DNA from: Streptomyces sp. BHT-5-2
GTDB lineage: Bacteria > Actinomycetota > Actinomycetes > Streptomycetales > Streptomycetaceae
NCBI RefSeq assembly: GCF_019774615.1
Contig: NZ_CP081496.1
Coordinates: 1,984,001 to 2,048,000, forward strand
DNA: 64,000 nucleotides
Direction: 5' to 3'
Both the position numbers and the translations under genes were made by a program. This document shows, in pieces, positions 1 to 15,829 of this stretch. The stretch's first letter is position 1, and every line of letters starts with the position of its first letter. The notes beneath the pieces were generated by a model, which worked only from the letters and a program-made list of their open reading frames with translations, ran no database searches and was not told where the DNA came from.

Positions 1-93
1 CCCACCGGGGTGGTGTTCCCCGAGATGACGCCGGTGCCGCAGGACGTCGTCTCCGCGCTGGAGAAGGCAGGGGTCGAGGTCACGGTGTCATGA
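1..93 (+). CDS. 3' end of an unidentified gene
   Basis: The first 93 bases are open in frame 1 and end at a TGA at 91-93, giving 30 residues that finish GVEVTVS. The reading frame enters from outside the window. The next gene starts at the ATG at 90 inside an ATGA overlap, so the two are translationally coupled and probably one operon. The fragment is too short to assign a family. If it is a cluster enzyme it could supply a function missing downstream, such as a dehydratase, but nothing in the 30 residues shows that. Confidence 0.6.
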   Translation, partial: PTGVVFPEMTPVPQDVVSALEKAGVEVTVS

Positions 94-734
94 GCGAGGA
101 GAAAGGCGGCGGCAAGCCGCAGCTGACGCGGCAGGGGAACCTGCGGCGGACGAGTCTGCTCGATGCCGCCGAGTCCGTACTGGTCGCCAAGGGCAACGCG
201 GATGCGTCGCTGCGGGCCATCGCCGGTGAGGCGGGGGTGCGGGTCGGGCATCTGCAGCACTACTTCCCGACCCGGGCGGATCTGATCAAGGCCGTGCTGG
301 AGCGGGCGTTGGACCGGTCGCTGGAGCGGCTGGCGGAGACCACCGGGCTGCGGATGAGCCGGGAGGACCCGACGGTCATCGAGGTGCCGGAGGGCGGTCG
401 GGCGGAGCCCGCCGAGGTGGTCGCGGTGGTCCTGGCCGAGCAGGAGGACCCCCAGCTCGTCCGGCTGTATGTCGAGGTGTGGGCGCTGGCGGCGCGGGAC
501 GACGAGATCGCCGCGGTGGTCCGGGAGTTCTACCTGAAGTACGTGGCGCACGTCGAGGCGTATGTGCAGCAGGGGCGGCCGGAGTGGTCCGCCGACTTCT
601 GCCGGGCGCGGGCCGAGACGTTCGTGGCGCTGGTCGAGGGGGCGGCCCTGATGCGGTCGGGGATCGCCGGAAGCCGGTCGGGCGCGATGGACGAGCAACT
701 CGCCCGGCAGGCCGTTCAGTTGCTCCGGGACTAG
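90..734 (+). CDS. TetR/AcrR-family transcriptional regulator
   Basis: A 214-aa TetR-type repressor. The N-terminal helix-turn-helix spans about residues 20-65 and includes ASLRAIAGEAGVRVGHLQHYF, the usual DNA-reading helices ending in the H(Y)F motif, followed by an all-helical C-terminal ligand and dimerisation domain. It overlaps the upstream gene by 4 bp and lies 175 bp ahead of the P450. Its position at the head of the cluster suggests local control of the P450/polyketide genes, but no clear palindromic operator is visible in 735-909. The ligand is unknown. Confidence 0.88.
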   Translation: MSEEKGGGKPQLTRQGNLRRTSLLDAAESVLVAKGNADASLRAIAGEAGVRVGHLQHYFPTRADLIKAVLERALDRSLERLAETTGLRMSREDPTVIEVPEGGRAEPAEVVAVVLAEQEDPQLVRLYVEVWALAARDDEIAAVVREFYLKYVAHVEAYVQQGRPEWSADFCRARAETFVALVEGAALMRSGIAGSRSGAMDEQLARQAVQLLRD

Positions 735-909: not shown

Positions 910-2097
910 ATGTCCGAGGCAATCGATCTGGCCGAGCTGGCGGCCACGGCGGGTCTGGAGCAGGAGCTCGCGCGGCTCGCCGCCGACCACGACATCGTCC
1001 GTACGCGGCAGTTGAACCAGCAGGAGACCTGGACGGTGCTGAGCGCGCCGCTGACCCGGGAGCTGCTGAGCGATCCGCGGCTGTCCAACGACGTCCACAC
1101 GCATGCGCCGCACGGGGCGCTGGTCCCGGGGCTGCAGGTGATGCTGCTCGAACAGGACGACCCGGGGCACGCCCGTTACCGGCGGCTGGTGACCGCGGCG
1201 TTCGCGTCGAAGGCGGTGCGGCGGCTGGAGCCGCGGATCGTGGAGATCACCCGGCAGCTGCTGGAGAAGCTGGGCGACAGCGGGACGGTGGATTTCATCG
1301 ACGCGTTCACCTACCCGATGCCGCTGGAGGTGATCTGCGATCTGCTGGGGGTGCCGAACGAGGACCGGGACCCGTTCCGGAAGTGGGCGATGGACATCTC
1401 GGCGGCGCCGTCGCTGGAGGCGATGCAGACGTCGGCGGGCGAGCTGTTCGGGTACTGCGTCGGGCTGATCGGGGCCAAGCGGGCGCAGCCGACGGAGGAC
1501 CTGCTCGGTGAGCTGATCGCGGCGCGGTTCGAGGACGGTACCGGGCTGACGGACGAGGAGCTGTCGTCGTTCGCCGCGGTGCTGCTGATCGCGGGGCACG
1601 ACACGGTGACGAACCTGCTGGCCAACGCGTTGTACGAGCTGCTCACCCACCCGGAGCAGCTGGCCGCGCTGCGCGCGGACCGGTCGTTGGTGGGGGCGGC
1701 GGTGGAGGAGGCGCTGCGGTTCCGGGGGTCGGCGATGACCACGGTGAACCGGGTGGCACTTGAGGACATCGAGGCCGGTGGGGTCACCATCCGCAAGGGC
1801 GAGCTGGTGCGGTTCCTGTTGAACGCGGCCAATCGGGACGCGGAGGTGCGGGCGGACGGCCACACCTTCGACCTCGGGCGGGCCACCGCGCAGCATGTCG
1901 CGTTCGGGATGGGGCCGCACTTCTGCCTGGGGCAGCGGCTGGCCCGGCAGGAGGCGACGATCGCGCTGACCGAGATCCTGGACCGGTTCCCGACGCTGGA
2001 GCTCGGGGTGCCGGCGGACGAGGTGCGATGGCTGGCCTCGGATGCGATCCGGGGGCTGGAGGAGCTGCCGCTGCGCTACGCGCGGGCGGCGGAGTAG
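910..2097 (+). CDS. cytochrome P450 (CYP)
   Basis: A soluble bacterial P450 of 395 aa, the family's usual length. Visible signatures are the I-helix oxygen-activation motif AGHDT at residues 228-232, the K-helix ExxR at E267/R270, and the heme-binding loop FGMGPHFCLGQRLAR with the axial cysteine at C339. The start is the ATG at 910, 7-8 bases after an AGGGGGAG-like ribosome site; an earlier in-frame start at 772 lacks one. Ferredoxin and reductase genes follow in the same direction, giving a self-contained three-component monooxygenase. It probably oxidises the product of the adjacent polyketide/amine pathway; the substrate is unknown. Confidence 0.95.
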   Translation: MSEAIDLAELAATAGLEQELARLAADHDIVRTRQLNQQETWTVLSAPLTRELLSDPRLSNDVHTHAPHGALVPGLQVMLLEQDDPGHARYRRLVTAAFASKAVRRLEPRIVEITRQLLEKLGDSGTVDFIDAFTYPMPLEVICDLLGVPNEDRDPFRKWAMDISAAPSLEAMQTSAGELFGYCVGLIGAKRAQPTEDLLGELIAARFEDGTGLTDEELSSFAAVLLIAGHDTVTNLLANALYELLTHPEQLAALRADRSLVGAAVEEALRFRGSAMTTVNRVALEDIEAGGVTIRKGELVRFLLNAANRDAEVRADGHTFDLGRATAQHVAFGMGPHFCLGQRLARQEATIALTEILDRFPTLELGVPADEVRWLASDAIRGLEELPLRYARAAE

Positions 2098-2222: not shown

Positions 2223-2420
2223 ATGACGGTGCGGATCTCGGTCGATTACGGGCTGTGCGACGGGCTGGGGCAGTGTGCGCTGGTGGCGCCGGAGGTCTTC
2301 GCGCTGGACGACGACGAGCAGTTGGTCGTCACGCCGGACCCGGCGCCGGAGTTGGCGGGGAAGGTGGCGGCCGCGGCGCGGGCGTGCCCGGTGCGGGCGA
2401 TCTCGGTCGAGGGGGCCTGA
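2223..2420 (+). CDS. ferredoxin, [3Fe-4S] type
   Basis: A 65-aa acidic ferredoxin that passes single electrons from the reductase to the P450. It has three cluster cysteines, in CDGLGQC and ACPVRA; the place of the usual second cysteine is Gly, which is the pattern of P450-associated three-iron ferredoxins. A TTG at 2214 is in frame, but it directly abuts the AAGGGGAG ribosome site, whereas the ATG at 2223 lies about 9 bases after it, so I start there. It is separated by 3 bp from the reductase gene. Confidence 0.93.
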   Translation: MTVRISVDYGLCDGLGQCALVAPEVFALDDDEQLVVTPDPAPELAGKVAAAARACPVRAISVEGA

Positions 2421-2423
2421 GCC

Positions 2424-3746
2424 TTGCGCGAGGTCGTGGTGGTGGGCGCGGGCCTGGCCGGTGTCCGGGCCGCCGGGGAGCTGCGGGCCCGGGGGTTCTC
2501 CGGGGCGCTGACGGTGGTGTCGGACGAGGTGGAACTCCCCTACGACCGGCCGCCGTTGACCAAGCAGGTGGTGTCCGGGACGCTCACCGCGGACGACATC
2601 CGGCTGGCGGGCGCCGAGGACTTCGGCGCCCGCTGGGTCCGGGGGACCGCGGCCGTCGGGCTGGACCGGGAGCGGCGCCGGGTGCGGCTGGCCGACGGCG
2701 TGGAGCTGCCGTACGACGGGCTGGTGCTGGCGACCGGGGCGCGGGCGCGGGCCTGGCCCGGGGAGGTGCCGGCCGGGGTGCTGACGGTGCGGGGGCTGGA
2801 CGACGTCCGGGCGCTGCGTGCGGCGGTCGACGGCGGGGCCCGTGAGGTGGTGGTCGTCGGGGCGGGTTTCGTCGGGGTGGAGTTGGCGTCGTCGCTGGTC
2901 GGGCTGGGGCTCGGGGTGCGGGTGACGTTGCTGGAGCCGTTCGGGCGACCGTTGCGGGCGCTGGGCGGGACGGTGCCGGACGTGGTGGCCGCGGCGGCGC
3001 GGCGGGCCGGGGTGGAGCTGCGAATGGGCATCGGGGTGAGGGGTTTTCGTGCGGAGGGGGCGCGGGTCGCCGGGGTCGAGTCGGCCGACGGGAGTGTGCT
3101 GCCGGCCGAGGTGGCGGTGGTGGCGATCGGGATGGTGCCGGCCACGGGATGGCTGGTGGGGTCCGGGCTGGCGCTGCCGGGCGGGCGGGTGCACTGCGAC
3201 GAGCGGCTGTTCGCGCGGACGGCGGAGGTGCCGGGTGTGGCGGGTGCGCTGGGTGAGGTGGGTGTGACGGGGGCGGCCGGGGGGATCGATCCGCGGATCG
3301 TGGTGGCCGGGGACGTGGCGCGGTGCGATGCGGTGCGGTCGGCGGACGGGCCGGTGGCGCTGGAGCACTGGAGCAACGCGGCGGCGCAGGGGGAGTCGGC
3401 GGCGCGGAACCTGTTGGCGGGGCCGGCGGCGGCCGGGTCGTATGCGCATGTGCCGTCGTTCTGGACGTCGGCGTTCGGGCTGCGGATCAAGTCGGTGGGG
3501 CTGCCGGGGACCGGGGACCGGGTGGTCGTCGAGGAGGGCGAGCCGGGGTCGGAGAAGTTGGTGGAGGCGCACTACCGGGCGGGCCGGCTGGTCGGTGCGG
3601 TGAGTGTGAATCTGGGGAAGCGGCTGGCGGGGTATGCACGGCGGCTCCAGGAGGAGCGGGGGGCGGCGGAGGCGGCCGGGGTGTCCGGCGGGGCGCCGGG
3701 CCGGGGCTCCGACGAGGTGCCGGCCTGGGGCGGGGCCGCGGGCTGA
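2424..3746 (+). CDS. FAD-dependent NAD(P)H:ferredoxin reductase
   Basis: A 440-aa flavoprotein of the putidaredoxin-reductase type. It shows an N-terminal FAD-binding GAGLAG glycine motif within the first 15 residues, a central NAD(P)-binding GAGFVGVE motif around residue 145, and a late FAD-contacting VVAGDVAR segment. It takes electrons from NAD(P)H and reduces the ferredoxin encoded 3 bp upstream. The start is TTG (2424). The C-terminal 30 residues are low-complexity Gly/Ala/Arg. The gene completes the P450 redox chain and ends the first plus-strand block of the cluster. Confidence 0.93.
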   Translation: MREVVVVGAGLAGVRAAGELRARGFSGALTVVSDEVELPYDRPPLTKQVVSGTLTADDIRLAGAEDFGARWVRGTAAVGLDRERRRVRLADGVELPYDGLVLATGARARAWPGEVPAGVLTVRGLDDVRALRAAVDGGAREVVVVGAGFVGVELASSLVGLGLGVRVTLLEPFGRPLRALGGTVPDVVAAAARRAGVELRMGIGVRGFRAEGARVAGVESADGSVLPAEVAVVAIGMVPATGWLVGSGLALPGGRVHCDERLFARTAEVPGVAGALGEVGVTGAAGGIDPRIVVAGDVARCDAVRSADGPVALEHWSNAAAQGESAARNLLAGPAAAGSYAHVPSFWTSAFGLRIKSVGLPGTGDRVVVEEGEPGSEKLVEAHYRAGRLVGAVSVNLGKRLAGYARRLQEERGAAEAAGVSGGAPGRGSDEVPAWGGAAG

Positions 3747-4510
3747 GCGGCGGCATCCGGCCGGTGGCCGGAATTCTGTGCCGTGACCGAAGACGTTCCG
3801 TCGCCCGAGAAGTTCCGCGACAATGGAAAAGTTAACGCGCCATTCATATTGATAGGGGTTCACTGTTCGAGCCGGCGGCATCCTGGGTTACCCCCCGTAA
3901 ACCCCCCTAATTTTCATCACTTTCCCGAGCGCTTTGGGTCAAGTGACCTATCGCACAAACGAGTGACGGTCCCGGATGGCTCTGGTAGCGTTTTTGTCAC
4001 GCCTCCAGGAGAGGCGGAGCGGGCTTTGTGAGTGCGTCACGACGAGGTGGCCGCCGACAATGTGCGGCCCGTTCTTGCGCAAGCAGGTGTCGGGGGATCA
4101 TTTGCTATCGGGGGATGGTCATGTGTAGCGCTTTCACCAGCGCGTGAATCGCGGCTTCCGAATCTCCGGAAGCGTTTCCTTTCTCGTGTGCCCGTAGGTG
4201 CGCCCATCGTTCTGACGGCGCCGAATCTTGTCTCGGGCGCGTAATCCATCATCAATCGTTCGCCATGCGCGAGTCTGCGGTGACGGTCGTCGGCTGAAAT
4301 TCCGGACGACTTCGCAAGGCTTGCGCAGCGGGCTTCCTCTATCGCGCCCACAGTGTCCTGTGTATTTCCGGGGCGGCTGGTGCGAGCTTTCGATTAAACG
4401 CTGTCGGATATTTTCCGCTGCCGTTTCCAGAGAATTTCCATGGCTGGTCGACGATTCCCCATGGCCGGTCGACGGTGGTCTTCAGAGTGCTCAGAAACGA
4501 GGAGAGAACC
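3747..4510 (+). other. 764-bp intergenic regulatory region ahead of the polyketide genes
   Basis: No convincing gene: the short open frames here lack GC3 bias and recognisable motifs, and base composition is visibly richer in A/T than in the flanking genes, as in Streptomyces promoter regions. Three structures stand out. TCGGGGGAT is repeated directly at 4090-4098 and 4108-4116 (period 18). GCTTCCG/CGGAAGC forms an inverted repeat at 4154-4173. Tandem 16-mers lie at 4438-4474 (separate entry). The gap probably carries the main promoter of the ACP-to-thioesterase operon. Confidence 0.6.
4438..4474 (+). repeat. tandem 16-bp direct repeats before the ACP gene
   Basis: CCATGGCTGGTCGACG at 4438-4453 recurs as CCATGGCCGGTCGACG at 4459-4474, differing at one base. 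The period is 21 bp, two helical turns, so both copies face the same side of the DNA. The second copy ends 36 bp before the ACP start. This geometry suits a cooperative activator or repressor site. The regulator is unknown. Confidence 0.55.
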
Positions 4511-5089
4511 ATGCAGAACCCCTACGAGGCCGAGCAGATCCAGGAGATCGTACGGGAGGGGCTCGCCCAGGTCCTGGGCACCGGGACCGACGAGATCACC
4601 CCGGACGCCACCCTCGTCGGCGACCTCGGCGCGGAATCCCTCGACCTGGTCGAATTCCGCTTCGAAATGGAGACCAAGCTCGGCGTGGCGCTGCCGAAGT
4701 CCAATGTCCTGGACCAGCTCGCCGGGGTGCTCGGCGGCTCCGAGCAGCTCTACGACGAGCGCGGCGGCATCACCGAGCTGGCCGCCGAGGTGCTGCGCCG
4801 CAGCGCGTTCGGCTACTCCGCCGAGCAGGTGCACGCCGGCCAGCGGCCCTACGAGGTCGCCGCCGCGGCCACCAGTGCCCACTGGGCCGCCTTCACCCAC
4901 GCGATCTTCGACCACCTGCCCGAGAACTGCACCGAGTGCGGCGCCGACAAGGCCGAGCCGGCCGCGTCCGGCAAGGCGGTCTGCGCCGGCTGCGGTGCCG
5001 CGCTGGAGGCCGCCACGGGCGACGAGGTGATGGCCGAGGGCGTCCGGAGCGCGCTGGCCGCCCTCGGGCACGCCCAGCCCGTCGGCTGA
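4511..5089 (+). CDS. acyl carrier protein with C-terminal zinc-ribbon-like extension
   Basis: A 192-aa protein. Residues 1-85 are an acyl carrier domain with the phosphopantetheine site LGAESLDLVEF (Ser43). Usual ACPs stop near residue 85, but this one continues about 105 residues. The extension contains CTEC (C140/C143) and CAGC (C158/C161), a CX2C-X14-CX2C arrangement typical of a zinc ribbon. The ATG at 4511 follows a GAGGAGAG ribosome site. It heads the run of ketosynthase genes and is the only carrier protein in the cluster, so it presumably holds the growing chain. The extension may dock a partner enzyme; that part is inference. Confidence 0.88.
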   Translation: MQNPYEAEQIQEIVREGLAQVLGTGTDEITPDATLVGDLGAESLDLVEFRFEMETKLGVALPKSNVLDQLAGVLGGSEQLYDERGGITELAAEVLRRSAFGYSAEQVHAGQRPYEVAAAATSAHWAAFTHAIFDHLPENCTECGADKAEPAASGKAVCAGCGAALEAATGDEVMAEGVRSALAALGHAQPVG

Positions 5090-5150
5090 CCGCCCGGCGG
5101 CCGGTGCGGAAGGCGTCGCTCGTCGTGCGAGTCGTGCGAAAGGAATGCAA

Positions 5151-6500
5151 GTGACACCCCACATATCCCACGGGGCCCAACACGAGGTCGTGGTGACCGG
5201 GATCGGCCTGGTCGCCGGGCAACTGACCGACCCGGAGGCGCTGTTCGACCACATCGCGGAAGGACGCACGCTCATCGCCGAGCACCCCCTCCACAAGGAG
5301 TGGGGCGTCCCCTGCGCCGTCTCTGCCCACATCGACCCCCATGTCCGGCAGGCGCTCGCGGACGCGGCGCCCGAGGAGGCCGGGCCGCTGGGACCGGCCG
5401 GCGTCCTCGCCTGGCACGCCGCCGCCCAGGCATGGGAGCGCAGCGGACTGCCGCGCCGGCTGGACAGCGAGCGCGGCGGCCTCTTCCTCGCCTGCAACCG
5501 GATGGTCATGGAGCCGGCCGAACTCACCACGCTGGCCGCCCATGTGGACCACGAGGCCGCGGCCCTGGACCTGGACGGCTACCTGGAGGCGCTCGACGGC
5601 GCCGCGGCGGCCGGCGGAGCCGACGCGGCCGGCGCCGGCGGGCTCGACCCGGACCGGCACGCGCGGATCCAGCCGGACACCGCCACCGCCGCGCTCGCCG
5701 ACTACTTCGGCGCGTCCGGTGTCCTGGAGACCCACGCGGACGCCTGCGCCGCCGGCGGCATGGCGATCGGCAGCGCCTACCGCTACATCCGCAGCGGTGC
5801 GCTGGACGTGGCGCTGGCCGGCGGCGCCGAGAGCCTGACCACGCTGACCTCGATCACCGCCTTCTACGGGGTGGGCGCGCTCGCCCCGGTGGACGGGAAG
5901 GACCCGGAGCGGATCAGCCGCCCCTTCGACAAGGACCGCTCGGGCTTCGTCATCGGGGACGGCGCGGCCTTCCTCGTCCTGGAGTCCCGGGCGCACGCCG
6001 AGGCGCGCGGCGCCCGCATCCTGGCCCGGGTCGCCGGGTACGCCGGGGTGACCGAGGCGGTGAAGATGACGTCCAGTTCGCGGGACGGCTCGGACTACGC
6101 GGAGTGCATGCGGGCCGCGCTGGCCGACGCCGGGCTCGGGCCGGACGACATCGACCACGTCAACGCGCACGGCACCTCCACCGAGGCCAACGACACCTGC
6201 GAGGCGGCGGCCCTGCACACCGTCTTCGGGGCGCGGGCCGCCACGCTCCCGGTCACCGGCAACAAGTCCGCCATGGGGCACTCGCTGGCCAACAGCGGGG
6301 CGGCCGAGGCGGTGCTGTCGGTGCTCAGCCTCCGGCGGCAGACGCTGCTGCCGACCCTGAACTTCACCGAGCCGGACGAGGTGACCGCCGGGCTGGACGT
6401 CGTCACCGAGCGGCGCCCGGCGCGGGTGACCGCGGTGCTGTCCAACTCCTTCGGCTTCGGGGGCCAGAACTGCTCCCTGGTCCTGGCCGAGGCGGGGTGA
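5151..6500 (+). CDS. beta-ketoacyl-ACP synthase, catalytic KS (pair 1)
   Basis: A 449-aa thiolase-fold ketosynthase of the FabF/KS-alpha type that condenses malonyl-ACP with the growing acyl chain. The catalytic set is complete: Cys199 in DACAAGG, His340 in NAHGTST, Lys372 and His377 in NKSAMGHS, plus the C-terminal SFGFGGQN loop. The sequence around Cys (HADACAAGG) departs from the common STACATS, suggesting unusual chain specificity. I use the GTG at 5151, 6 bases after AAAGGA; the ATG at 5145 abuts that site. It overlaps the next gene by 4 bp (GTGA), consistent with a stoichiometric KS/partner heterodimer. Confidence 0.92.
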   Translation: MTPHISHGAQHEVVVTGIGLVAGQLTDPEALFDHIAEGRTLIAEHPLHKEWGVPCAVSAHIDPHVRQALADAAPEEAGPLGPAGVLAWHAAAQAWERSGLPRRLDSERGGLFLACNRMVMEPAELTTLAAHVDHEAAALDLDGYLEALDGAAAAGGADAAGAGGLDPDRHARIQPDTATAALADYFGASGVLETHADACAAGGMAIGSAYRYIRSGALDVALAGGAESLTTLTSITAFYGVGALAPVDGKDPERISRPFDKDRSGFVIGDGAAFLVLESRAHAEARGARILARVAGYAGVTEAVKMTSSSRDGSDYAECMRAALADAGLGPDDIDHVNAHGTSTEANDTCEAAALHTVFGARAATLPVTGNKSAMGHSLANSGAAEAVLSVLSLRRQTLLPTLNFTEPDEVTAGLDVVTERRPARVTAVLSNSFGFGGQNCSLVLAEAG

Positions 6501-7720
6501 GCGCGGCGATGACGGCGACGATGAGGCATCACGTACGGCTGACCGCGCCCGGGCTCCACACCGCGGCCGGGACCGGTCCGGGCGACCTGTGGGAGGCCCT
6601 GGTCGCCGGCAAGGACACCCGCAGTCCGGCCGAGGCGCTGGCGGGCCCGTGGCCGGAGTTCGACACCGCCTTCCTGGTGGCGGACCCGGACGCGGCCGCC
6701 CTCGGGGTGCACCGCAGGGTCCTGCGCACCTCGGAGAAGCAGGCCCGGATGGCGCTCTACGGGGCGCGGCTGGCGCTCGCCGGTCCGGCGGAGCGCGGTC
6801 CGGTCGGCGGCCCCGGTTGGGGTCTCTACCTCGGACTGCCCACCGTGGACGAGGAGTTGCTGCGGTTCTCCGCGCTGGACCGGCTGCACCGGGCCGCCGG
6901 ATCGCCGGCCGAGGTCGCCGCCCTCTACGGCCGGGAGGTCCCGCCGTTCAGCGGGCTGTCCCACCTCAACAGCACCGCGGCCGCGCACATCTCGGCGGCC
7001 TTCGGGCTGACCGGGGCGATGGCCGCGTACTCGCCGTTCTCCGACGCCGGGCTGCAGGCCCTGATCGACGGGGCGCTGTCGGTCGCGGAGGGGGAGAACG
7101 AGGCGGCGCTGGTCGGGGCGGTGAGCCCCAAGGTGCATCCACTGCTCTTCGCGCAGTACGAAGAGCTGGGGTGGAACGGGGCGGTGCCGGGGGAGGGCGC
7201 GGCCTTCCTGCTCGCCGAGCGGGGCGGCGGCGCGGACGGCGGCGCGGGCGGGCCGGACGGCTCGTCCGCCGGGTCCGGGGCGCCGGGGGCGCGGCTGGCC
7301 GGTTACGGGCGGGCGTTCGGCGCCGGGCCCGAGGACCGGGCCGAGGCGATCGCCGAGGCCGTCCACGCGGCCCTGGAGACGGCCGGCACGGACGCCGGCG
7401 GGATCGGCTGGGTGCTGCCCGACGCCGCCTGGACGGCGGACACCGCACGGGCCCAGGACGCCGCCCTGGAGCGGGTCTTCGCGGGCACCGCGGACCGGCC
7501 CGCCGCGTTCACCGCCGAGCGCGCCACCGGGGTGCTGGGCCCCGCCCACCCGCTGGCGCACACGCTGCTGGCGCTGCACGGCCTGGCCACCGGGCGGCGG
7601 CTGGCCGCCGACGGCGAGGCGGTGCGCGAGGAGGCGCTGCCCGCCCCGCGGGCCCTGGTGCTGGCCTGCGGCGCACGCGGCCAGGTGTGCGCCGTCGTAC
7701 TGGAAGGAGCCGGGAAATGA
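6497..7720 (+). CDS. ketosynthase-fold protein lacking catalytic residues (chain-length-factor-like, pair 1)
   Basis: A 407-aa KS homologue in which the nucleophile region reads AYSPFSDAG, with Ser182 where Cys is expected. The NAHGTST and NKxxxGH histidine motifs are also absent (the C-terminal region has only GPAHPLAHT), so it cannot condense by the usual mechanism. Family knowledge: inactive KS-beta/chain-length-factor subunits pair with an active KS in type II systems and shape the product tunnel. GTGA overlap with the active KS upstream and ATGA overlap with the next KS support coupled expression. ATG starts at 6509 and 6521 are alternatives. Confidence 0.8.
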   Translation: MSAAMTATMRHHVRLTAPGLHTAAGTGPGDLWEALVAGKDTRSPAEALAGPWPEFDTAFLVADPDAAALGVHRRVLRTSEKQARMALYGARLALAGPAERGPVGGPGWGLYLGLPTVDEELLRFSALDRLHRAAGSPAEVAALYGREVPPFSGLSHLNSTAAAHISAAFGLTGAMAAYSPFSDAGLQALIDGALSVAEGENEAALVGAVSPKVHPLLFAQYEELGWNGAVPGEGAAFLLAERGGGADGGAGGPDGSSAGSGAPGARLAGYGRAFGAGPEDRAEAIAEAVHAALETAGTDAGGIGWVLPDAAWTADTARAQDAALERVFAGTADRPAAFTAERATGVLGPAHPLAHTLLALHGLATGRRLAADGEAVREEALPAPRALVLACGARGQVCAVVLEGAGK

Positions 7721-8994
7721 GCCGCCGCGTCGTGGTGACCGGACTGGGCGCCGTCTGCGGACTGGGGCTCGACTGGCAGACCATGTGGGAGGGGCTGACC
7801 GCGGGCCGGTCGGCGATCCGCGCCTGGCGGCCGCCCGGCGTCGACGACTTCCCGGTGCGCTACGCCGCGCCCGTCGACGACGCGGAGTTCGCCGCGCGGT
7901 ACGGCGCCGAGGCGGACCCGGCGCGGCCGCTGGAGCGGCGCGCCCGCTTCGGGCTGGCGGCCGCCGCACAGGCGCTGGCCGACGCCGGCATCGACGCCCC
8001 GGGCACGGTGGGCCGGATCGGCACCGCCGTCGGCTCGGGCGTACCGGAGCGCGACCCCTACGAGCTGCTGCACGCGATCGGCGAGGACGGCGCGCCCAGT
8101 TGGCAGACGCTGTTCGCCCGGCGCGACCGGCTGGACCGGGCCAGCGGCCTGTTCTGCACCAACGACGCGCTGGCCGCCGGGATCGCGGCCCGGCACCGGC
8201 TGCGCGGCCCGGCGCTGAACTTCTCCACCGCCTGCGCCGGCGCCACCCACGCCATCGGCCACGGAATGCGGATGATCCGGCGCGGGGAGGTGGACGCGAT
8301 GGTGGTGGGCGGCGCCGACTCGGTGCTGAACCTGCCGACCATGACCGGGCTGCACCTGCTGGGCGCGCCGTCCACCTCCGAGCTGTTCGGGGACCGGCTG
8401 TGCCGGGCCTTCGACCGGGACCGCAGCGGGCTGGTGGCCGCCGAGGGCGCGGCCATGCTGGTGCTGGAGAGCGAGGAGAGCGCCCGCCGGCGGGGTGCGG
8501 CGATCCACGCCGAACTGGCCGGTTTCGGCAGCTCGTTGGACGCCCACCAGGTCACCGCCCCGCACCCGGAGGGGCACGGCGCGGCGCTGGCGATGAGCCG
8601 GGCGCTGGCGGACGGCGGGGTGGTGCCCGAGGCGGTGGACTCCGTCAACGCGCACGGCACCTCCACGCCGCTGAACGACCCGATCGAGACCCGGGCGATC
8701 AAGGACGTGTTCGCGGCCGGCGAGCACTACCGGAAGCTGGCGGTGACCGCCAACAAGACCATGCTCGGGCACCTGATCGCCGCCGCCGGCGCGCCCGAGC
8801 TGATCGCCACCGTGCTGTCCGTCCGGGACGGCATCGTGCCCCCGACGCTGAATCTGGAGAACCCGGATCCGGCCTGCGACCTGGACTACGTGCCGGAGAA
8901 GGCGCGGTACCAGGAGGTGTCGGCGGCTGTGAGCAATTCCTTCGGCTTCGGCGGACTCAACGCCAGTCTGGTGGTGCGTGGTTATGAGCACTGA
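7717..8994 (+). CDS. beta-ketoacyl-ACP synthase, catalytic KS (pair 2)
   Basis: A 425-aa canonical FabF/KAS II-like enzyme: nucleophile Cys173 in FSTACAGATHAIG, His313 in NAHGTST, His352 in NKTMLGH, and SFGFGGLN near the end. It is closer to ordinary KS sequences than the first KS. The ATG (7717) overlaps the upstream stop by 4 bp. It is followed by another cysteine-less homologue overlapping by 11 bp, so the locus holds two KS/partner pairs in series. The two pairs could act on different chain-length windows, or one could make a starter unit; the sequence does not decide. Confidence 0.93.
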   Translation: MSRRVVVTGLGAVCGLGLDWQTMWEGLTAGRSAIRAWRPPGVDDFPVRYAAPVDDAEFAARYGAEADPARPLERRARFGLAAAAQALADAGIDAPGTVGRIGTAVGSGVPERDPYELLHAIGEDGAPSWQTLFARRDRLDRASGLFCTNDALAAGIAARHRLRGPALNFSTACAGATHAIGHGMRMIRRGEVDAMVVGGADSVLNLPTMTGLHLLGAPSTSELFGDRLCRAFDRDRSGLVAAEGAAMLVLESEESARRRGAAIHAELAGFGSSLDAHQVTAPHPEGHGAALAMSRALADGGVVPEAVDSVNAHGTSTPLNDPIETRAIKDVFAAGEHYRKLAVTANKTMLGHLIAAAGAPELIATVLSVRDGIVPPTLNLENPDPACDLDYVPEKARYQEVSAAVSNSFGFGGLNASLVVRGYEH

Positions 8995-10363
8995 CATCGT
9001 TTCGAGCACCGGAACTCCTCCCGGCGCCGACAGCGCCGAGAGCTTCGGCAGCGCCGGGCCCGGCGCGTTCGCCCCCGACGCGATCGTCGTCACCGGCATC
9101 GGCGCCGTGCTGCCCACCGGGCGCGGGCCCGAGGCACTGTGGACGGCGTGGCGGGAGGCGCGGACCGCGCTCTCGCCGTACCAGGACCCCTACGTACGGA
9201 CGCGGAGGATCACCCACTTCGGGCACGTCCCCGCCGAGCTCCAGCAGCTCAGCCGGGACAGCGTCCCCCACAAACTGCGGAAGTTCGGCACCGCGTTCAC
9301 CTTCAACGCGGTGCTGGCCGCCGAGGACGCCATGCGGCAGGCCGGCGAGAGCTGGCAGGCCGTCCCCGAGGAGCGGCGCGGCCTCTACGTCGCCCAGGAC
9401 GACTCCACCGAACTGAGCGTGGCCGCCTTCCACAAGGCGCTCGACCAGGCCCGTACCGACACCTCGCGGCAGGTCGGCGCGGACCTGACGCGGGTGGTGG
9501 CGGAGGCGTTCGGCAACGCCGCGACCTTCAACCCGTTCACCGTCATCCGGGCGCTGAACAACAACACCCTGGCGCTGGTCAGCATCGCCCGGCGGTTCCG
9601 CGGCGACTGCGCGGCCTTCGTCCAGGACGCCGGGGCGGCGCTCGGCGCCCTCCAGCGGGCCGCGTTCAGCCTCCGCCAGGGCGACTGCGACACCGCGCTG
9701 GTCGTCGGCGCCGGCAGCTACAACGAGCCGCTGAAGCTGGCCGCGCAGTACCGTGCCGGCAACCTCACCGCCGGCGCCGACGGCGCCGCCCCGCTGCGCA
9801 GCTTCGACGCCGGGCGGGACGGCACGGTGCTGGCCGAGGGCGCGGTGGCGCTGGTCCTGGAGCGGGCCGGGGACGCCGCGGCGCGCGGGGCCCGCCCGCT
9901 GGTCACGGTGCTCGGCGCGGCGCTGCGGCCGGCCGTGGACAGCGGTGTCGGCCCGGCCGCGCTGGCCGAGAGCGCCCGCGGACTGATGGCCGCGCACGGG
10001 GTGACGCCGGACACCCTCGGCGCCGTCCTGGCCGACGGCAAGGGCACCGTCCACCACGACGCCGCCGAGGCCGAGCTGCTGCGGGCGCTGCTGAAGGACA
10101 GCGGCGTCCCGGTCAGCTCGGTGCGGCCGGTCACCGGCACCCTGGGGGCCGCCGGACCGCTGGCCGAACTGGCGCTGGCGCCCAGCCTGTTCGCCGCCGG
10201 TGAGCTGCCGCCGATCGCGCACCTGGCGACCCCGCCGGACGACGGCACCGACTTCGTCACCGGAACGGCCCGGAAGCGGCGGATCGACACCGTCCTCAGC
10301 CTGCACAGCAGTTTCAACGGGTTCGCGGGCGCCCTGCTCGCCGAGCGGCCGCACCTCGTCTAG
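8984..10363 (+). CDS. ketosynthase-fold protein lacking catalytic cysteine (chain-length-factor-like, pair 2)
   Basis: A 459-aa KS-fold protein. At the nucleophile position it reads AAFVQDAGAALGAL: Gln214/Asp215 replace the Cys context, resembling the glutamine-containing elbow of type II chain-length factors. The NAHGT histidine region is degraded to LADGKGTVHHD and the NKxxxGH motif is replaced by TGTLGAAGPL. The C-terminal LHSSFNGFAG is a relic of the KS SFGFGG loop. The ATG at 8984 lies 11 bp inside the preceding KS gene. It is most likely the inactive partner of that KS. A Ser/Gly-rich 30-residue N-terminal tail precedes the fold. Confidence 0.82.
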   Translation: MSTDIVSSTGTPPGADSAESFGSAGPGAFAPDAIVVTGIGAVLPTGRGPEALWTAWREARTALSPYQDPYVRTRRITHFGHVPAELQQLSRDSVPHKLRKFGTAFTFNAVLAAEDAMRQAGESWQAVPEERRGLYVAQDDSTELSVAAFHKALDQARTDTSRQVGADLTRVVAEAFGNAATFNPFTVIRALNNNTLALVSIARRFRGDCAAFVQDAGAALGALQRAAFSLRQGDCDTALVVGAGSYNEPLKLAAQYRAGNLTAGADGAAPLRSFDAGRDGTVLAEGAVALVLERAGDAAARGARPLVTVLGAALRPAVDSGVGPAALAESARGLMAAHGVTPDTLGAVLADGKGTVHHDAAEAELLRALLKDSGVPVSSVRPVTGTLGAAGPLAELALAPSLFAAGELPPIAHLATPPDDGTDFVTGTARKRRIDTVLSLHSSFNGFAGALLAERPHLV

Positions 10364-10376
10364 GAGACCACCAGTC

Positions 10377-13280
10377 ATGTCCACCACCTCAGCGTTCACC
10401 GAGTTCGTACAGCCGCAGATGGGGCGAGTGTTCACCGCCCTGGGGCTGGACGTCGAGTACGAGCGGGCCGAGGGCAACACCCTCTACCACCGCGACGACC
10501 AGGGCGATCTGGTGCCGGTCCTGGACCTGATGGGCGGCTACGGCTCGCTGATCCTCGGCCACAACCACCCGGAGATCGTCGCCCACGCCAAGGGGCTGCT
10601 GGACCGGAACCGGGCCGTGCACGCCCAGTTCTCACTGCGCGGCGAGGCCGGCCGGCTCGGCGCCGCGCTCAGCGACGTCGTCCGCCGGGAGACCGGCATC
10701 AAGGAGCCGTACCTGGCCACCTTCGGCAACAGCGGCGCCGAGGCCGTCGAGGCGGCCGTCAAGCACGCCGAGCTGGTCCGGGTGACCAAGGCGGCGGCGC
10801 TGGCCGAGGAGACCGCGGCCCACCTGGAGGCGGCCCGGGACGCGGTCCGCCGCGGCGCGGCCACCGTCGACCCGGACGCCTACCAACTGCCGGCCCTCCA
10901 GGGGCAGGTCGCCCCGGCCGCCGGCATCGAGGGGCTGCTGGCCGCGATCGGCGCCCACAACGGGGCGGCGCTGGCCACCAAGCCGCTGTTCCTGGCCCTG
11001 GAGCGGTCCTTCCACGGCAAGCTCGTCGGCAGCGTCCAGCTCACCTACAACACCGGCTTCCGCGCCCCGTTCCAGAACCTCGGCACCCGGGTCCGCTTCG
11101 TCCCCATGGACCGGCCGGAGCTGCTGGACCGGATCGCCGAGGACGAGCGGGTGGTGCTGCTCGACACCGAGGTCGAGGACGGCCGGGTGCGGGTCGTGGA
11201 GCGGGACTTCCCCGCCATCACCGCCTTCATGGTCGAGCCGGTGCAGGGCGAGGGCGGCATCCACGCACTCACCGCCGAACAGGGCCGCGCCATCCGGCTG
11301 TTCTGCAACAAGGTCGGCACCGCACTGATCGTCGACGAGGTGCAGAGCGGCATGGGCCGCTGCGGCGCCTTCCTGGCCAGCTCGCTGATCGGGCTGCGCG
11401 GCGACTACTACACGCTGTCGAAGTCGCTGGGCGGCGGCGTGGCGAAGATCTCGGCGATGCTGGTCCGCCGGTCCCTGTACCAGGGCGAGTTCGACCTGAT
11501 CCACAGCTCGACGTTCGCCATGGACGACTTCTCCTCGTCCGTCGCCCGCAAGGTCGTCGAGATGCTGGAGGCCGACGACGGGAAGGTGTACCGGCGGGTC
11601 GCCGAGCGCGGCGAGCGGCTGGTGGAGATGCTGGCCGACCTCAAGTCCGCCTATCCGGACGTCATCGAGGACATCCGCGGCAAGGGCCTGTTCGTCGGCG
11701 TCCAGCTGCGCGAGCAGGGCGAGGCCCGCTCCATGGTGCTGCGCGGCAGCGCCTACACCGGGGCGCTGGGCTATCTGCTCTCCGGCTATCTGCTGCGCCA
11801 GGAGCGGATCCGGATCGCGCCGACCGGCAGCGCCGGCAACGTGCTGCGCATCCAGCCGTCCGCGTTCCTCACCGACGAGGAGATCGAGCGGCTGCGCGGC
11901 GCGCTGGACCGGCTCTGCCGCATCCTGCGCTACGAGGACACCCTGCACCTGGTGCACCCCGCCAGCGACCGGACGATCCCCAAGCCGCGGGCCGAGATCC
12001 GCGACTTCCGCGGTGCGGTCGAGGGCTACGAGCAGGGCGCGCCGCGCCCGGTGACCGGCCCGGTCCGCAAGGTGGCGTTCGTCAACCACCTGATCACCCC
12101 GGCCCATCTGCGGCAGGTGGACCCGGCGCTGGCCGACCTGAGCGACGCCGCGCTGCGCTCGTTCGTGCTCGGCATGGACCCGGTGAAGAAGGCGGCGCCC
12201 TACCCGGGCGTGCGGATCGACTCGCCGCTGGGCAGCGCCGTGGAGTTCGCGCTGTACCCGCTGATGGTGGGCTCGGAGCAGATGGGCGGCTATCTGGCGT
12301 CCGGGGACGTCGCCGGGATCCGGGCGGACGTCGAGGAGCGGGTGCAGGCGGCCCGCGAGGACGGCTGCGAGGTCGCCGGGCTCGGCATGTACACCTCGAT
12401 CGTCACCAACAACTGCACCTCGCTGAACGTCCCCGGCATCGCGCTGACCTCCGGCAACGCGCTGACCGTCGCGATGGGCGTACAGGCCATGGAGCGCGGC
12501 GCGCGGGACCGCGGCTTCGCGGTCGGCGACGCCACGCTCGCGGTGGTCGGCGCCGCCGGCAACATCGCCTCCGTCTACAGCCAGTTGTTCGCCGAGAAGC
12601 TCAGCCGGATCGTGCTGGTCGGCAGCCGCCGGGACGGCTCCGCGCGGCGGCTGCGGCACACCGTGCACGGCATCTACCAGGAGGCGTGGGCGCGGATCAC
12701 GGAGGGCGGCGAACTGGCCGGCATCCCGGCCCGCCTGACCGAGGAACCGCTGATCGCCAAGTGGCTGGCCGACGGGGCGTCCGCCGAGGACCCGGACGAC
12801 GCCGACCGCGGCCAGGAGATCGCCGCCTACCTGGAGGAGCGGTACGGCCAGGACCCGTTCCTGACCGTCACCCAGGACACCGACGCGCTGCACAAGGCGC
12901 AGCTGGTGCTGTGCGCCTCCAACAGCCCCGAACCGTTCCTGACCGGGGAGCACTTCGCGTCGGACGCGGTGGTCTGCGACATCGCGGTCCCCAACAACGC
13001 GGTGCCGGACCTGGCCGCGCAGCGGCCCGACCTGGCGTACATGCTCGGCGGCATCGTCGCCACGCCCAACGGCGAGAGCCTGCACCCCTCGGCGCGCGCC
13101 TTCCTGGAGGCCGGCCAGCTCTTCGCCTGCATGGCGGAGACCGCGCTGATGGGCCTGGCCGGCCTGGACCGGCACTACTCCTACGGGAACATCAGCCGCC
13201 GGCAGGTCATCGACATTGCCGCACTGGCCGACGCCCACGGGCTGCGGCTGGCCGACTACAAGAGCGCGCACTCCGTGTGA
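10377..13280 (+). CDS. class III aminotransferase fused to acyl-ACP-reductase-like domain
   Basis: A 967-aa two-domain enzyme. Residues about 1-560 are a PLP class III aminotransferase: GNSGAEAVEAA phosphate loop, VDEVQSG with Asp320, and PLP lysine Lys349 in LSKSLGGG. Residues about 620-967 resemble cyanobacterial acyl-ACP reductase: LGMYTSIVTNN, a Rossmann VVGAAGNIAS motif near 725, and FACMAETAL with Cys918 at the place of that family's acylated cysteine. I infer that acyl-ACP is reduced to an aldehyde and transaminated to a primary amine within one polypeptide. The tambjamine enzyme TamH combines the same two activities. The ATG follows TAGGAGA. It lies 13 bp after the KS-partner gene. 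Confidence 0.87.
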   Translation: MSTTSAFTEFVQPQMGRVFTALGLDVEYERAEGNTLYHRDDQGDLVPVLDLMGGYGSLILGHNHPEIVAHAKGLLDRNRAVHAQFSLRGEAGRLGAALSDVVRRETGIKEPYLATFGNSGAEAVEAAVKHAELVRVTKAAALAEETAAHLEAARDAVRRGAATVDPDAYQLPALQGQVAPAAGIEGLLAAIGAHNGAALATKPLFLALERSFHGKLVGSVQLTYNTGFRAPFQNLGTRVRFVPMDRPELLDRIAEDERVVLLDTEVEDGRVRVVERDFPAITAFMVEPVQGEGGIHALTAEQGRAIRLFCNKVGTALIVDEVQSGMGRCGAFLASSLIGLRGDYYTLSKSLGGGVAKISAMLVRRSLYQGEFDLIHSSTFAMDDFSSSVARKVVEMLEADDGKVYRRVAERGERLVEMLADLKSAYPDVIEDIRGKGLFVGVQLREQGEARSMVLRGSAYTGALGYLLSGYLLRQERIRIAPTGSAGNVLRIQPSAFLTDEEIERLRGALDRLCRILRYEDTLHLVHPASDRTIPKPRAEIRDFRGAVEGYEQGAPRPVTGPVRKVAFVNHLITPAHLRQVDPALADLSDAALRSFVLGMDPVKKAAPYPGVRIDSPLGSAVEFALYPLMVGSEQMGGYLASGDVAGIRADVEERVQAAREDGCEVAGLGMYTSIVTNNCTSLNVPGIALTSGNALTVAMGVQAMERGARDRGFAVGDATLAVVGAAGNIASVYSQLFAEKLSRIVLVGSRRDGSARRLRHTVHGIYQEAWARITEGGELAGIPARLTEEPLIAKWLADGASAEDPDDADRGQEIAAYLEERYGQDPFLTVTQDTDALHKAQLVLCASNSPEPFLTGEHFASDAVVCDIAVPNNAVPDLAAQRPDLAYMLGGIVATPNGESLHPSARAFLEAGQLFACMAETALMGLAGLDRHYSYGNISRRQVIDIAALADAHGLRLADYKSAHSV

Positions 13281-13411
13281 GCCTCCCCCGGCCGACGCCG
13301 GGGGTATCCCCCCGGGGCGCCGCACGCGACCCGTCGCAGGCAACCACCGCGTGCGGCGCCCGGCCTCCCCCCACGCCGTACCCCCCAAGGACCCGAAAGG
13401 ACCTCAGCGTC

Positions 13412-14158
13412 ATGGAATTCGCAGGCCAGGTGGCACTGGTGACCGGCGGCAGCCGGGGCATCGGCCGCGCCATCGCGGTCAGGCTGGCGGAGGAGGGCTG
13501 CGCCGTCGCCCTCAACTACCGCAGCGCGACGGCGGAGGCGGAACAGGTCGCCGAGCAGATCGCCAAGCTGGGCCGGAAGGTCGAGCTGTACCAGGGGGAC
13601 ATCTCCGACCCCGAGGTGCCGCGGCGGATCGTCTCCGACGTCCGCGCCGCCTTCGGACGGATCGACGTCCTGGTCAACAACGCCGGGATCACCCGCGACG
13701 AACTGCTGGTCAACCAGCGGCTCTCGGACATCGAGGACGTGCTGCGCACCAACCTCGTCGCCCCCATGCTCACCGTCCAGGCGGTGGCGCCCGCGATGCT
13801 GCGGCAGCGCTACGGTCGGATCGTCAACATCTCCTCCTCGTCCGCCGCCAAGCCCGGCCGCGGGCAGTCCAACTACGCGGCGGCCAAGGGCGGTCTGGAG
13901 TCCTTCACCAAGGCGATGGCGGTGGAGCTGGCCTCCCGGAACATCCTCGTCAACGCGGTCGCCCCCGGCGTCATCAACACCGAGATGACCGACACCATCC
14001 GCGCCCACGGCGAGGACGAGATCATGAGCCGGCTGCTGCTGAAGAAGTACGCCGAACCCGAGACGATCGCCGACGCCGTGGCGTACCTCGCGAGCCCGCG
14101 CAACACCTACACCACGGGCGAGGTACTGCACGTCGACGGCGGCCTGAAGATGGCGTGA
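13412..14158 (+). CDS. 3-oxoacyl-ACP reductase, FabG-like SDR
   Basis: A 248-aa classical short-chain dehydrogenase. The NADP-binding glycine motif TGGSRGIG is at residues 11-18, followed by NNAG, the catalytic serine region NISSSSA, YxxxK as YAAAKGG, and a C-terminal DGGLKMA. Length and sequence match FabG and polyketide ketoreductases, so it probably reduces the beta-keto group left by the KS pairs. The ATG at 13412 follows GAAAGGA. A 131-bp gap separates it from the fusion gene; the next SDR begins 10 bp after its stop. Confidence 0.92.
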   Translation: MEFAGQVALVTGGSRGIGRAIAVRLAEEGCAVALNYRSATAEAEQVAEQIAKLGRKVELYQGDISDPEVPRRIVSDVRAAFGRIDVLVNNAGITRDELLVNQRLSDIEDVLRTNLVAPMLTVQAVAPAMLRQRYGRIVNISSSSAAKPGRGQSNYAAAKGGLESFTKAMAVELASRNILVNAVAPGVINTEMTDTIRAHGEDEIMSRLLLKKYAEPETIADAVAYLASPRNTYTTGEVLHVDGGLKMA

Positions 14159-14168
14159 GGTGCCGGCC

Positions 14169-14987
14169 ATGAGTGACATGAGTGAACTGACCACCCCCGT
14201 CGCGGCCCCGGTACCGGGTGAGCTGGCCGGCCGGACCGCGGTGGTCACCGGCGCCGCCCAGGGCATCGGCCGCGAAGTGGCCCTGCTGCTGGCCGAGTCC
14301 GGCGCCGCCCGGCTGGTCCTGCTCGACCGGGACGCCGCACAGCTGGACACCGTCGCCAAGGAGGTGCGCGACCTCGGCGCGCGGGCCACCGCGCTCGTCG
14401 CGGACCTGCGCGAACGGGAGGCGGTCCGCGGCGCCCTGCGCGCCGCGCTGCGCGCCGCCGGGCCGCTGCACATCCTCGTCAACAACGCCGGCGTCGCCGA
14501 CGAGAACGGCCCGGACGACGAGGAGACCTGGCTGCGGGTGCTGGAGATCAACCTGCACGGCACCTTCGCGGTCACCGCCACCTGCCTGGAACACCTCGTC
14601 GACAAGGGCCGGATCGTCAACGTCTCGTCGATCCTCGGCAAGGCCGGCAAGATGCGGAACACCGCCTACTGCGCCTCCAAGCACGGCCTGATCGGGTACA
14701 CCAAGGGCCTCGCCCTCGACCTCGCCGCCCGCGGCATCACCGTCAACGCCGTGCTGCCGGGCTGGATCGACACCCCGATGCTGCGCCGCGAGATCGCCGC
14801 CTCCGCCGAGGAGATCGGCGCCGACCCGGCACGGATGCTGCGCCAGGCGCGCAAGTCCATCCCGCTGCGGCGGCTGGTGGAGGCCCGGGAGGCCGCCGAG
14901 CTGATCGGCTTCCTGGCCTCCGACCGGGCGGCCGCGATCACGGCGCAGTCCCTGACCGTCGACGGGGGCTACACCCGTGGGATGTGA
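14169..14987 (+). CDS. second SDR-family oxidoreductase
   Basis: A 272-aa SDR with TGAAQGIG cofactor loop, acidic LLDRD at the end of beta-strand 2 (favouring NAD(H)), NNAG, VNVSSILG serine region and the YCASKHG active-site Tyr/Lys. It is only moderately similar to the FabG-like neighbour and has an insertion around EEIGADPARMLRQARK that may form a substrate lid. It could reduce a second keto group, an enone or a cyclic imine intermediate. The ATG at 14169 is placed 8 bases after GAGG. The following thioesterase overlaps its end by 11 bp. Confidence 0.88.
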   Translation: MSDMSELTTPVAAPVPGELAGRTAVVTGAAQGIGREVALLLAESGAARLVLLDRDAAQLDTVAKEVRDLGARATALVADLREREAVRGALRAALRAAGPLHILVNNAGVADENGPDDEETWLRVLEINLHGTFAVTATCLEHLVDKGRIVNVSSILGKAGKMRNTAYCASKHGLIGYTKGLALDLAARGITVNAVLPGWIDTPMLRREIAASAEEIGADPARMLRQARKSIPLRRLVEAREAAELIGFLASDRAAAITAQSLTVDGGYTRGM

Positions 14988-15813
14988 CGGCACGGCGCTC
15001 ACCCTGCCGCGGCCCCGGCCGGCCCCGGCCGCCGACCCCTGGCTGCGCCGGCTGCGCCCGGGGCCGGCGCAGCCCGCGGCCGGCGCCGCCCGGGTCGTCT
15101 GCTTCCCGCACGCGGGCGGCGGTGCCGGCGCCTACCGGCCGCTGGCCACCGCGGTGGCCGCGCGCGCCGCCGGCGGCCGCCCGTACGAGGTGCTGGCCGT
15201 CCAGTACCCGGGCCGGAACGACCGGATCCGGGAGTCCCGCGTCGAGGACCTGCGGGCGCTGGCGGCCGGTGTGCACCGGGCGGTGGCGCCGCTGGCCGGC
15301 CGCCCGCTGATCCTGCTGGGGCACAGCATGGGCGCCCTCGTGGCCTACGAGGTGGCCCGCCTCCTGGAGCGTGCTGGGACCGGCCCGGCGCATCTGCTCG
15401 TCTCCAGTGCCTGGGCGCCGTCCCGGGTGCGCGGCGGCACCGTCCACCTACGGGACGACGAGGGCCTGATAGAGGAGATCCGGCGGACCCGGGGCACCGA
15501 CCCGCGGTTGCTGGACAACCCGGACGTGCTGGCCATGGCGCTGCCGGTGGTCCGCAGCGACTACCGGGCGGTGGAGACCTACCGGGACCGGGCCGGACCG
15601 CCGCTGGCCGCCCCCGTCACCGCGCTGACCGGCGACGACGACCCGCTGGTCGACGTCGAGGACGTGGCCGCCTGGCGGCAGCACACCGCCGGCGGCTTCC
15701 GGCTGCGGGTCTTCCCCGGCGGCGACCACTTCTATCTCTCCGGCCACTGGGCGGAGTTGGCCGACCACCTGGTCACGGCACCGCCGCGACCGGTGGCGGC
15801 GGTGGCCGGCTAG
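14977..15813 (+). CDS. type II thioesterase
   Basis: A 278-aa alpha/beta hydrolase of the external thioesterase family that edits polyketide and peptide assembly lines by removing stalled acyl groups. It shows the oxyanion segment CFPHAGGGAGAY, the nucleophile elbow GHSMG with Ser117, the acid region GDDDPLVD and the catalytic His in GGDHFYL. The GTG at 14977 lies inside the end of the SDR gene. A free-standing TEII suits an ACP-bound pathway whose normal release is reductive, as the aminotransferase-reductase implies. It is the last cluster gene; the convergent cmdA stop is only 17 bp away. Confidence 0.92.
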   Translation: MGCDGTALTLPRPRPAPAADPWLRRLRPGPAQPAAGAARVVCFPHAGGGAGAYRPLATAVAARAAGGRPYEVLAVQYPGRNDRIRESRVEDLRALAAGVHRAVAPLAGRPLILLGHSMGALVAYEVARLLERAGTGPAHLLVSSAWAPSRVRGGTVHLRDDEGLIEEIRRTRGTDPRLLDNPDVLAMALPVVRSDYRAVETYRDRAGPPLAAPVTALTGDDDPLVDVEDVAAWRQHTAGGFRLRVFPGGDHFYLSGHWAELADHLVTAPPRPVAAVAG

Positions 15814-15829
15814 GGCGTGTCCGGTGTCG

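Follow-up and report, generated by a model that had tools for sequence, protein, structure and literature searches.

The closest described counterpart of the gene cluster studied here, which lies at positions 4511–15813 of a 64,000-bp window from Streptomyces sp. BHT-5-2 (the window being the whole stretch of DNA that was analyzed), is the stm cluster of Streptomyces nigrescens HEK616. It comprises nine genes, with two sets of ketosynthase (KS) and chain length factor (CLF) genes and an aminotransferase gene; its expression in Streptomyces lividans leads to streptoaminals, with 5-alkyl-1,2,3,4-tetrahydroquinolines (5aTHQs) obtained in co-culture, and a common precursor is stated for both product families (PMC12187902). 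The stm locus tags are HEK616_65060-64980 (PMC11272600). In Pseudomonas koreensis, the koreenceine cluster kecA-H encodes an acyl carrier protein (ACP), KS, CLF, KS, CLF, a fusion protein, and two reductases, and is tied to a tetrahydropyridine; Lozano et al. assigned Streptomyces clusters, in which kecIJK are missing, to clade C of the koreenceine-like clusters (PMC6498172). As for release enzymes of this kind, PtTamA and PtTamH together turn fatty acids into amines on the way to tambjamine YP1 (PMC9594044), and PP_2782 of Pseudomonas putida, which has the same domain plan, is an active transaminase; 230 comparable gene clusters were counted in 2024, including 23 in Streptomyces (PMC10829540).

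We found that the window contains the nine genes of HEK616 in the same order, and we consider it likely, with a probability of roughly 0.92, that it yields streptoaminals, which are antimicrobial amines, together with 5aTHQs. The surrounding genome comprises 9.1 Mb in two contigs, and its nearest relatives in the searches belong to Streptomyces. The nine genes are laid out as follows.

4511..5089, + strand: ACP with a C-terminal four-Cys ribbon (PP-binding Pfam match; Zn_Ribbon_TF below its cut-off)
5145..6500, + strand: KS1, active-type ketosynthase with Cys-His-His (ketoacyl-synt; residue alignment)
6509..7720, + strand: CLF1, KS-like partner without catalytic residues (ATG at 6509, alternative start GTG at 6497; ketoacyl-synt, 37 bits)
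7717..8994, + strand: KS2, active-type ketosynthase (ketoacyl-synt; residue alignment)
8984..10363, + strand: CLF2, KS-like partner without catalytic residues (ketoacyl-synt; residue alignment)
10377..13280, + strand: fusion of a class III aminotransferase with an acyl-ACP-reductase-type domain, 967 aa (Aminotran_3; CrmG, PigE, and acyl-ACP reductase matches; K349, C918)
13412..14158, + strand: SDR1, a FabG-like ketoreductase of the short-chain dehydrogenase/reductase (SDR) type (best NCBIfam TIGR01830, 265.8 bits, under the cut-off of 297.75)
14169..14987, + strand: SDR2, FabG-like reductase (Pfam and NCBIfam family matches)
14977..15813, + strand: alpha/beta-hydrolase thioesterase (TE), type II-like (PF00975)

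Coordinates and family matches confirmed the gene list, order, and single strand that an initial annotation of this DNA had given, and its description of the spacing (mostly overlapping or within about 130 bp) agrees with the measurements, which go from short overlaps up to gaps of 131 bp. The nine genes form a putative operon, and all of them were collinear with orthologs in S. nigrescens HEK616 (locus L002), in the same order and on the same strand. Overall amino acid identity was 84.0% (3047 of 3629 aligned residues), with values of 88.0% for ACP, 84.6% for KS1, 75.7% for CLF1, 91.0% for KS2, 82.3% for CLF2, 85.4% for the fusion, 85.5% for SDR1, 87.5% for SDR2, and 73.5% for TE. Because only one full-length match to the fusion was found in the HEK616 genome, the locus compared is very likely the stm cluster itself. 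The original description of stm is reportedly that of Ozaki et al. in 2019. The likeness also includes the upstream genes for a TetR-family regulator, a cytochrome P450, a ferredoxin, and a ferredoxin reductase, which are present in HEK616 as well; the two loci differ in sequence divergence only, most of all in TE and CLF1, and the product of the window is predicted from genes alone. Moreover, the order ACP-KS-CLF-KS-CLF-fusion recurred in seven named genomes (including two of Pseudomonas and one of Chitinolyticbacter), which excludes chance.

Two KS/CLF pairs combined with an amine-releasing fusion are therefore not new: this logic is already characterized and occurs in Streptomyces, Pseudomonas, and other bacteria, and the window holds a further copy of an already known system rather than a new pathway type. 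The initial annotation had not recognized the combination, and had named an exact match to a characterized pathway as the observation that would speak against it; the stm cluster of HEK616 is such a match in nine of nine genes, and koreenceine kecA-H follows the same plan. Its interpretation thus survives in part, namely in gene content, type of chemistry, and the linkage of the P450, but not in novelty.

We read the catalytic residues of the KS-type proteins from one MAFFT alignment. KS1 and KS2 retained Cys-His-His and Lys, whereas all four positions were lost in both partners, where they are occupied by Ser/Asp/Val/Glu in CLF1 and Ala/Asp/Thr/Arg in CLF2. The same pattern was observed in HEK616 and in Pseudomonas mandelii (L007), in which both KSs keep all four residues and both CLFs are without the Cys and both His. 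Each pair thus consists of an active-type KS encoded beside a partner devoid of Cys-His-His, as expected of KS/CLF heterodimers, which is consistent with the earlier view of a reducing type II polyketide synthase (PKS)-like system with two such predicted pairs. The four-Cys C-terminal extension is shared by 10 of the 11 ACPs that were aligned, covering Streptomyces and both Pseudomonas; the exception, at L005, has a short or broken open reading frame. This copy, from Chitinolyticbacter albus, has a short ACP frame (L005:4726-4998) and retains no more than a small part of SDR1 (L005:12888-13533); it may be decaying or mis-sequenced. A family search of the nine proteins gave no dehydratase and no dedicated enoyl reductase, as previously noted; both SDRs matched adh_short_C2, a family whose Pfam description, "Enoyl reductase", spans SDRs broadly.

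The N-terminal half of the 967-aa fusion is a class III aminotransferase (Aminotran_3) with CrmG as the nearest Protein Data Bank match, and for the C-terminal half PigE and the acyl-ACP reductases (AARs) of cyanobacteria were matched. K349, the pyridoxal phosphate (PLP) lysine, is retained, and so are GAAGNIAS, a nucleotide motif, and C918, an AAR-type Cys that we take to correspond to C294 of SeAAR (from the alignment and a count from the SeAAR C-terminus). In an alignment of 17 proteins, consisting of that of the window and 16 chosen among 120 listed (466 had E ≤ 0.001), all 17 share the PLP lysine and 14 have the reductase Cys; the proteins lacking the latter (P0066, P0067, and P0079) come from actinomycetes. 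Having a class III transaminase with its PLP lysine and an AAR-like domain with its nucleotide motif and Cys, the window protein is predicted to be of the TamH/PP_2782 type and to perform aminating reductive chain release, in line with the relationship to TamH proposed initially. It shares with PtTamH and PP_2782/KecF the succession of transaminase and acyl-ACP reductase domains, the Cys, and the nucleotide motif, but the substrate of TamH is an acyl chain loaded by TamA and not a KS/CLF product.

The surroundings of related fusions were then compared by scanning genomes with an alignment of the fusion and considering the best 80 of 565 confirmed matches. Among these, full-length matches of at least 44% identity occurred at nine loci (L001–L008 and L030), and ACP-KS1-CLF1-KS2-CLF2 stood immediately upstream of the fusion at seven of them (L001–L007), which bears out the co-occurrence of fusion and paired KS genes that the initial annotation had proposed to check. 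At the other two, both from Embleya (L008 and L030), KS-like matches reached 29–32% only, with spacing as in modular synthases. Within a sample of 392 Streptomyces genomes, including that of the window, the reductase domain of the fusion was found at E ≤ 1e-30 in 12, six at 88–100% identity and six at 35–43%. Among the weaker fusions, L118–L121 (genomes G333, G347, G351, and G161) lie amid KS-like matches of 29–31% and carry Gly instead of the catalytic Cys, and L122 and L123 retain the Cys and have KS-like neighbors of 30–37%. The stm pairing of the fusion with four small KS genes is one of several fusion contexts.

A separate observation concerns an actinomycete branch of the fusions (L118–L121, L008, and L030; P0066, P0067, and P0079), in which Gly or Ala replaces the reductase Cys; at the six loci (L118–L121, L008, and L030) the altered fusion lies amid KS-like matches of 29–32%. 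The reductase half in this branch may be dead and retained for another purpose. The genome of the window also contains a second relative of the fusion, restricted to the aminotransferase (G000:C1:3994322-3995908; 49%, with one TGA within the match); about 4 kb away, a KS lies within an open frame of 2273 aa.

Based on the gene families and on work on TamH, PP_2782, and koreenceine, we propose loading, extension, reduction, aldehyde release, and transamination as the course of the pathway. The ribbon-bearing ACP would hold a fatty-acyl starter and malonyl units, the two KS/CLF heterodimers would lengthen the chain, and SDR1 and SDR2 would reduce selected beta-ketones. Because the operon shows no dehydratase or enoyl reductase gene, dehydration and enoyl reduction would rely on the fatty acid synthesis of the host. 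The fusion would then act with its reductase half, freeing the chain as an aldehyde via C918, and with its aminotransferase half, turning the aldehyde into a primary amine. This amine would close on a C5 ketone to give a cyclic imine, which a C9 hydroxyl would trap as the spirohemiaminal of streptoaminals; alternatively, with a C9 ketone, aldol closure and aromatization would lead to a tetrahydroquinoline (the numbering and both closures are reasoned from the product skeletons). TE probably edits stalled chains. The cyclic imine or alkaloid product suggested earlier is judged likely, and the ring-closing logic fits the common-precursor statement of PMC12187902.

Some points weigh against the assignment to streptoaminals and 5aTHQs. 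The nine HEK616 genes fit the nine tags 65060–64980 counted by tens, but this is an assignment by count. Conservation relative to HEK616 is lowest in TE and CLF1 (73.5% and 75.7%), so the chain length may differ from that in HEK616. The details of the stm pathway are drawn from a review (PMC12187902) and a later paper (PMC11272600), and the reductase activity of the AAR-like half of PP_2782 and three homologs was not determined (PMC10829540).

Upstream of the nine genes, the window encodes a regulator and a P450 set.

90..734, + strand: TetR-family regulator (TetR_N Pfam)
910..2097, + strand: cytochrome P450 (Pfam p450; the open reading frame opens at GTG 772, and ATG 910 is the likely start)
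2223..2420, + strand: small single-cluster ferredoxin, likely the P450 electron carrier (Fer4_13 / Fer4_15)
2424..3746, + strand: ferredoxin reductase (Pyr_redox_2 and Reductase_C)

The best solved relatives of the P450 include PikC, TamI, and EryF. When four candidates were scored per genome, a P450 ortholog (E ≤ 1e-110) was found in 6 of the 392 Streptomyces genomes, which are exactly the six with the stm-type fusion; the linked P450 of the initial annotation is upheld. TetR was detected at E ≤ 1e-40 in 19 of the 392, at 83% identity or more in the six stm-type genomes and in G348, a genome without the cluster, and at 46–57% in the other 12. With HEK616 and L004 added, and taking L001 as G266 and L003 as G195, the P450 was present in all eight stm-bearing genomes that were seen, on the same contig as the cluster in seven and in G195 on a 4.7-kb contig of its own, which stops shortly after the reductase gene. 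These counts are not independent events, because seven of the eight genomes share one downstream neighborhood. In G036, a draft of about 40 contigs, the P450 set is linked to the cluster and the usual downstream ATPase genes lie on another contig, with no cluster gene within 8 kb.

The DNA of the cluster-less genome G348 could be aligned with the window up to the end of TetR (window position 732) and again from window position 15829, with about 235 bp between, and the twelve proteins from P450 through TE had no match at E 1e-3 in the 4.6-kb stretch G348:C1:4631001-4635600. Both flanks and TetR are kept, the TetR frame being broken near codon 35. About 45 bp resemble the 3' end of the HEK616 TE gene; the other four ends compared aligned weakly or mostly past the stop. 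In an unrooted tree of flanking genes, G348 fell between two stm-bearing groups. Loss of the P450-to-TE block is favored over gain, although not proven, because of the broken TetR frame and the TE-like 45 bp.

These distributions suggest that the P450–ferredoxin–reductase set is part of one inherited unit, in which it would oxidize the product or an intermediate. Several observations speak against this extension: the argument draws on inheritance only, and at E 0.01 the P450 set was unmatched at the loci of Pseudomonas and Chitinolyticbacter, whose clusters manage without it. In addition, the nine genes by themselves reportedly yield both products (PMC12187902), so that a P450 step would be dispensable for these in S. 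lividans. Together with the common downstream neighborhood, by which linkage in seven genomes may largely reflect shared ancestry, this would suit a set that is merely a chromosomal neighbor with no role in the pathway. We nevertheless regard such a bystander as rather unlikely, given that the P450 ortholog and the stm-type fusion occur in the same six genomes, that the whole block from P450 to TE is missing in G348, which retains TetR and the flanks, and that in G036 the set is still linked to stm although the usual downstream genes lie elsewhere. Tentatively, at somewhat less than even odds, the streptoaminal unit would be larger than nine genes, with the P450–ferredoxin–reductase set, probably under TetR control, giving oxidized streptoaminals or tetrahydroquinolines or setting the C9 oxidation level that decides the skeleton in the native host. 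If this is true, known producers should also contain oxidized congeners yet to be discovered, and one could test where the difference in oxidation between streptoaminals and 5aTHQs comes from. The main texts of PMC12187902 and PMC11272600 treat stm as nine genes and do not contain the term P450. We see the linkage of the P450 as a modest new lead and make no claim that it is unpublished.

As for the nine genes themselves, a koreenceine-type cluster making a simple 2-alkyl-tetrahydropyridine, as in P. koreensis, instead of a streptoaminal has the placement of Streptomyces in clade C in its favor (PMC6498172), as well as the gene order of kecA-H, which equals that of the first eight genes of the window when read via P. 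mandelii (L007) and Pseudomonas sp. (L006) rather than P. koreensis itself. However, the window proteins are only about 30–53% identical to those of L006 and L007, as opposed to 73.5–91.0% to those of HEK616. TE is shared by the Streptomyces clusters and had no match in L005–L007; conversely, three genes downstream in L006 and L007 (one of MMPL type), taken as counterparts of kecI-K, were unmatched at E 1e-3 across the window, the preceding 15 kb, and the HEK616 stretches. The koreenceine system thus differs in having membrane-type genes downstream instead of TE, no adjoining P450 match, and a tetrahydropyridine product, and we consider it very unlikely to describe the window better than the streptoaminal pathway does. 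A small type II PKS-like KS/CLF system of the AmcF type is a further likeness: the AmcF model matched KS1, KS2, and CLF2, and CLF1 weakly, all below the cut-off, but that system has one pair performing a single C2 extension, and a fused release enzyme is not mentioned in the passages on it (PMC10698177). A novel route to an alkyl or polyene amine, unlike known ones, would accord with the correct gene list of the initial annotation and with a product that is so far predicted, but it is scarcely credible beside a collinear, 84% identical counterpart of a characterized cluster and with no dehydratase family among the nine genes, in contrast to polyene-forming highly reducing type II PKSs, which carry a dedicated dehydratase (PMC10698177).

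Further genes adjoin the unit. About 1.1 kb before the start of the window lies a phosphopantetheinyl transferase gene (L099:13241-13909; G000:C1:1982241-1982909), which may activate the ACP; it also adjoins the unit in G176, G192, and G266 and was unmatched in the stretches from HEK616, G036, and G348. Between about L099 position 14017 and the window start, a possible NAD(P)-binding protein is encoded, which gave no family at E 0.001; matches below the cut-off were obtained for two of its orthologs (Sacchrp_dh_NADP in L102), and its place is next to TetR in G348 and in the seven stm genomes for which this stretch was covered. Two upstream gene calls, U-438 and U-915, proved to be shadows of a protein encoded on the + strand and were omitted from the neighborhood table.

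Alignment of the clusters also revealed one short element between the P450 set and the nine genes.

3937..3957, + strand: 21-bp element upstream of the ACP gene, a candidate operator or promoter site (cluster alignment)

This element was recognizable with few differences in all seven aligned clusters and, with up to 3 mismatches allowed, occurred only once in the 9.1-Mb genome. Its 12-bp palindromic core was not enriched in the window (3 found versus 6.58 expected at up to 2 mismatches), and a promoter scan gave no sigma-70-like site. Terminator-like sites numbered two, compared with 1.1 expected.

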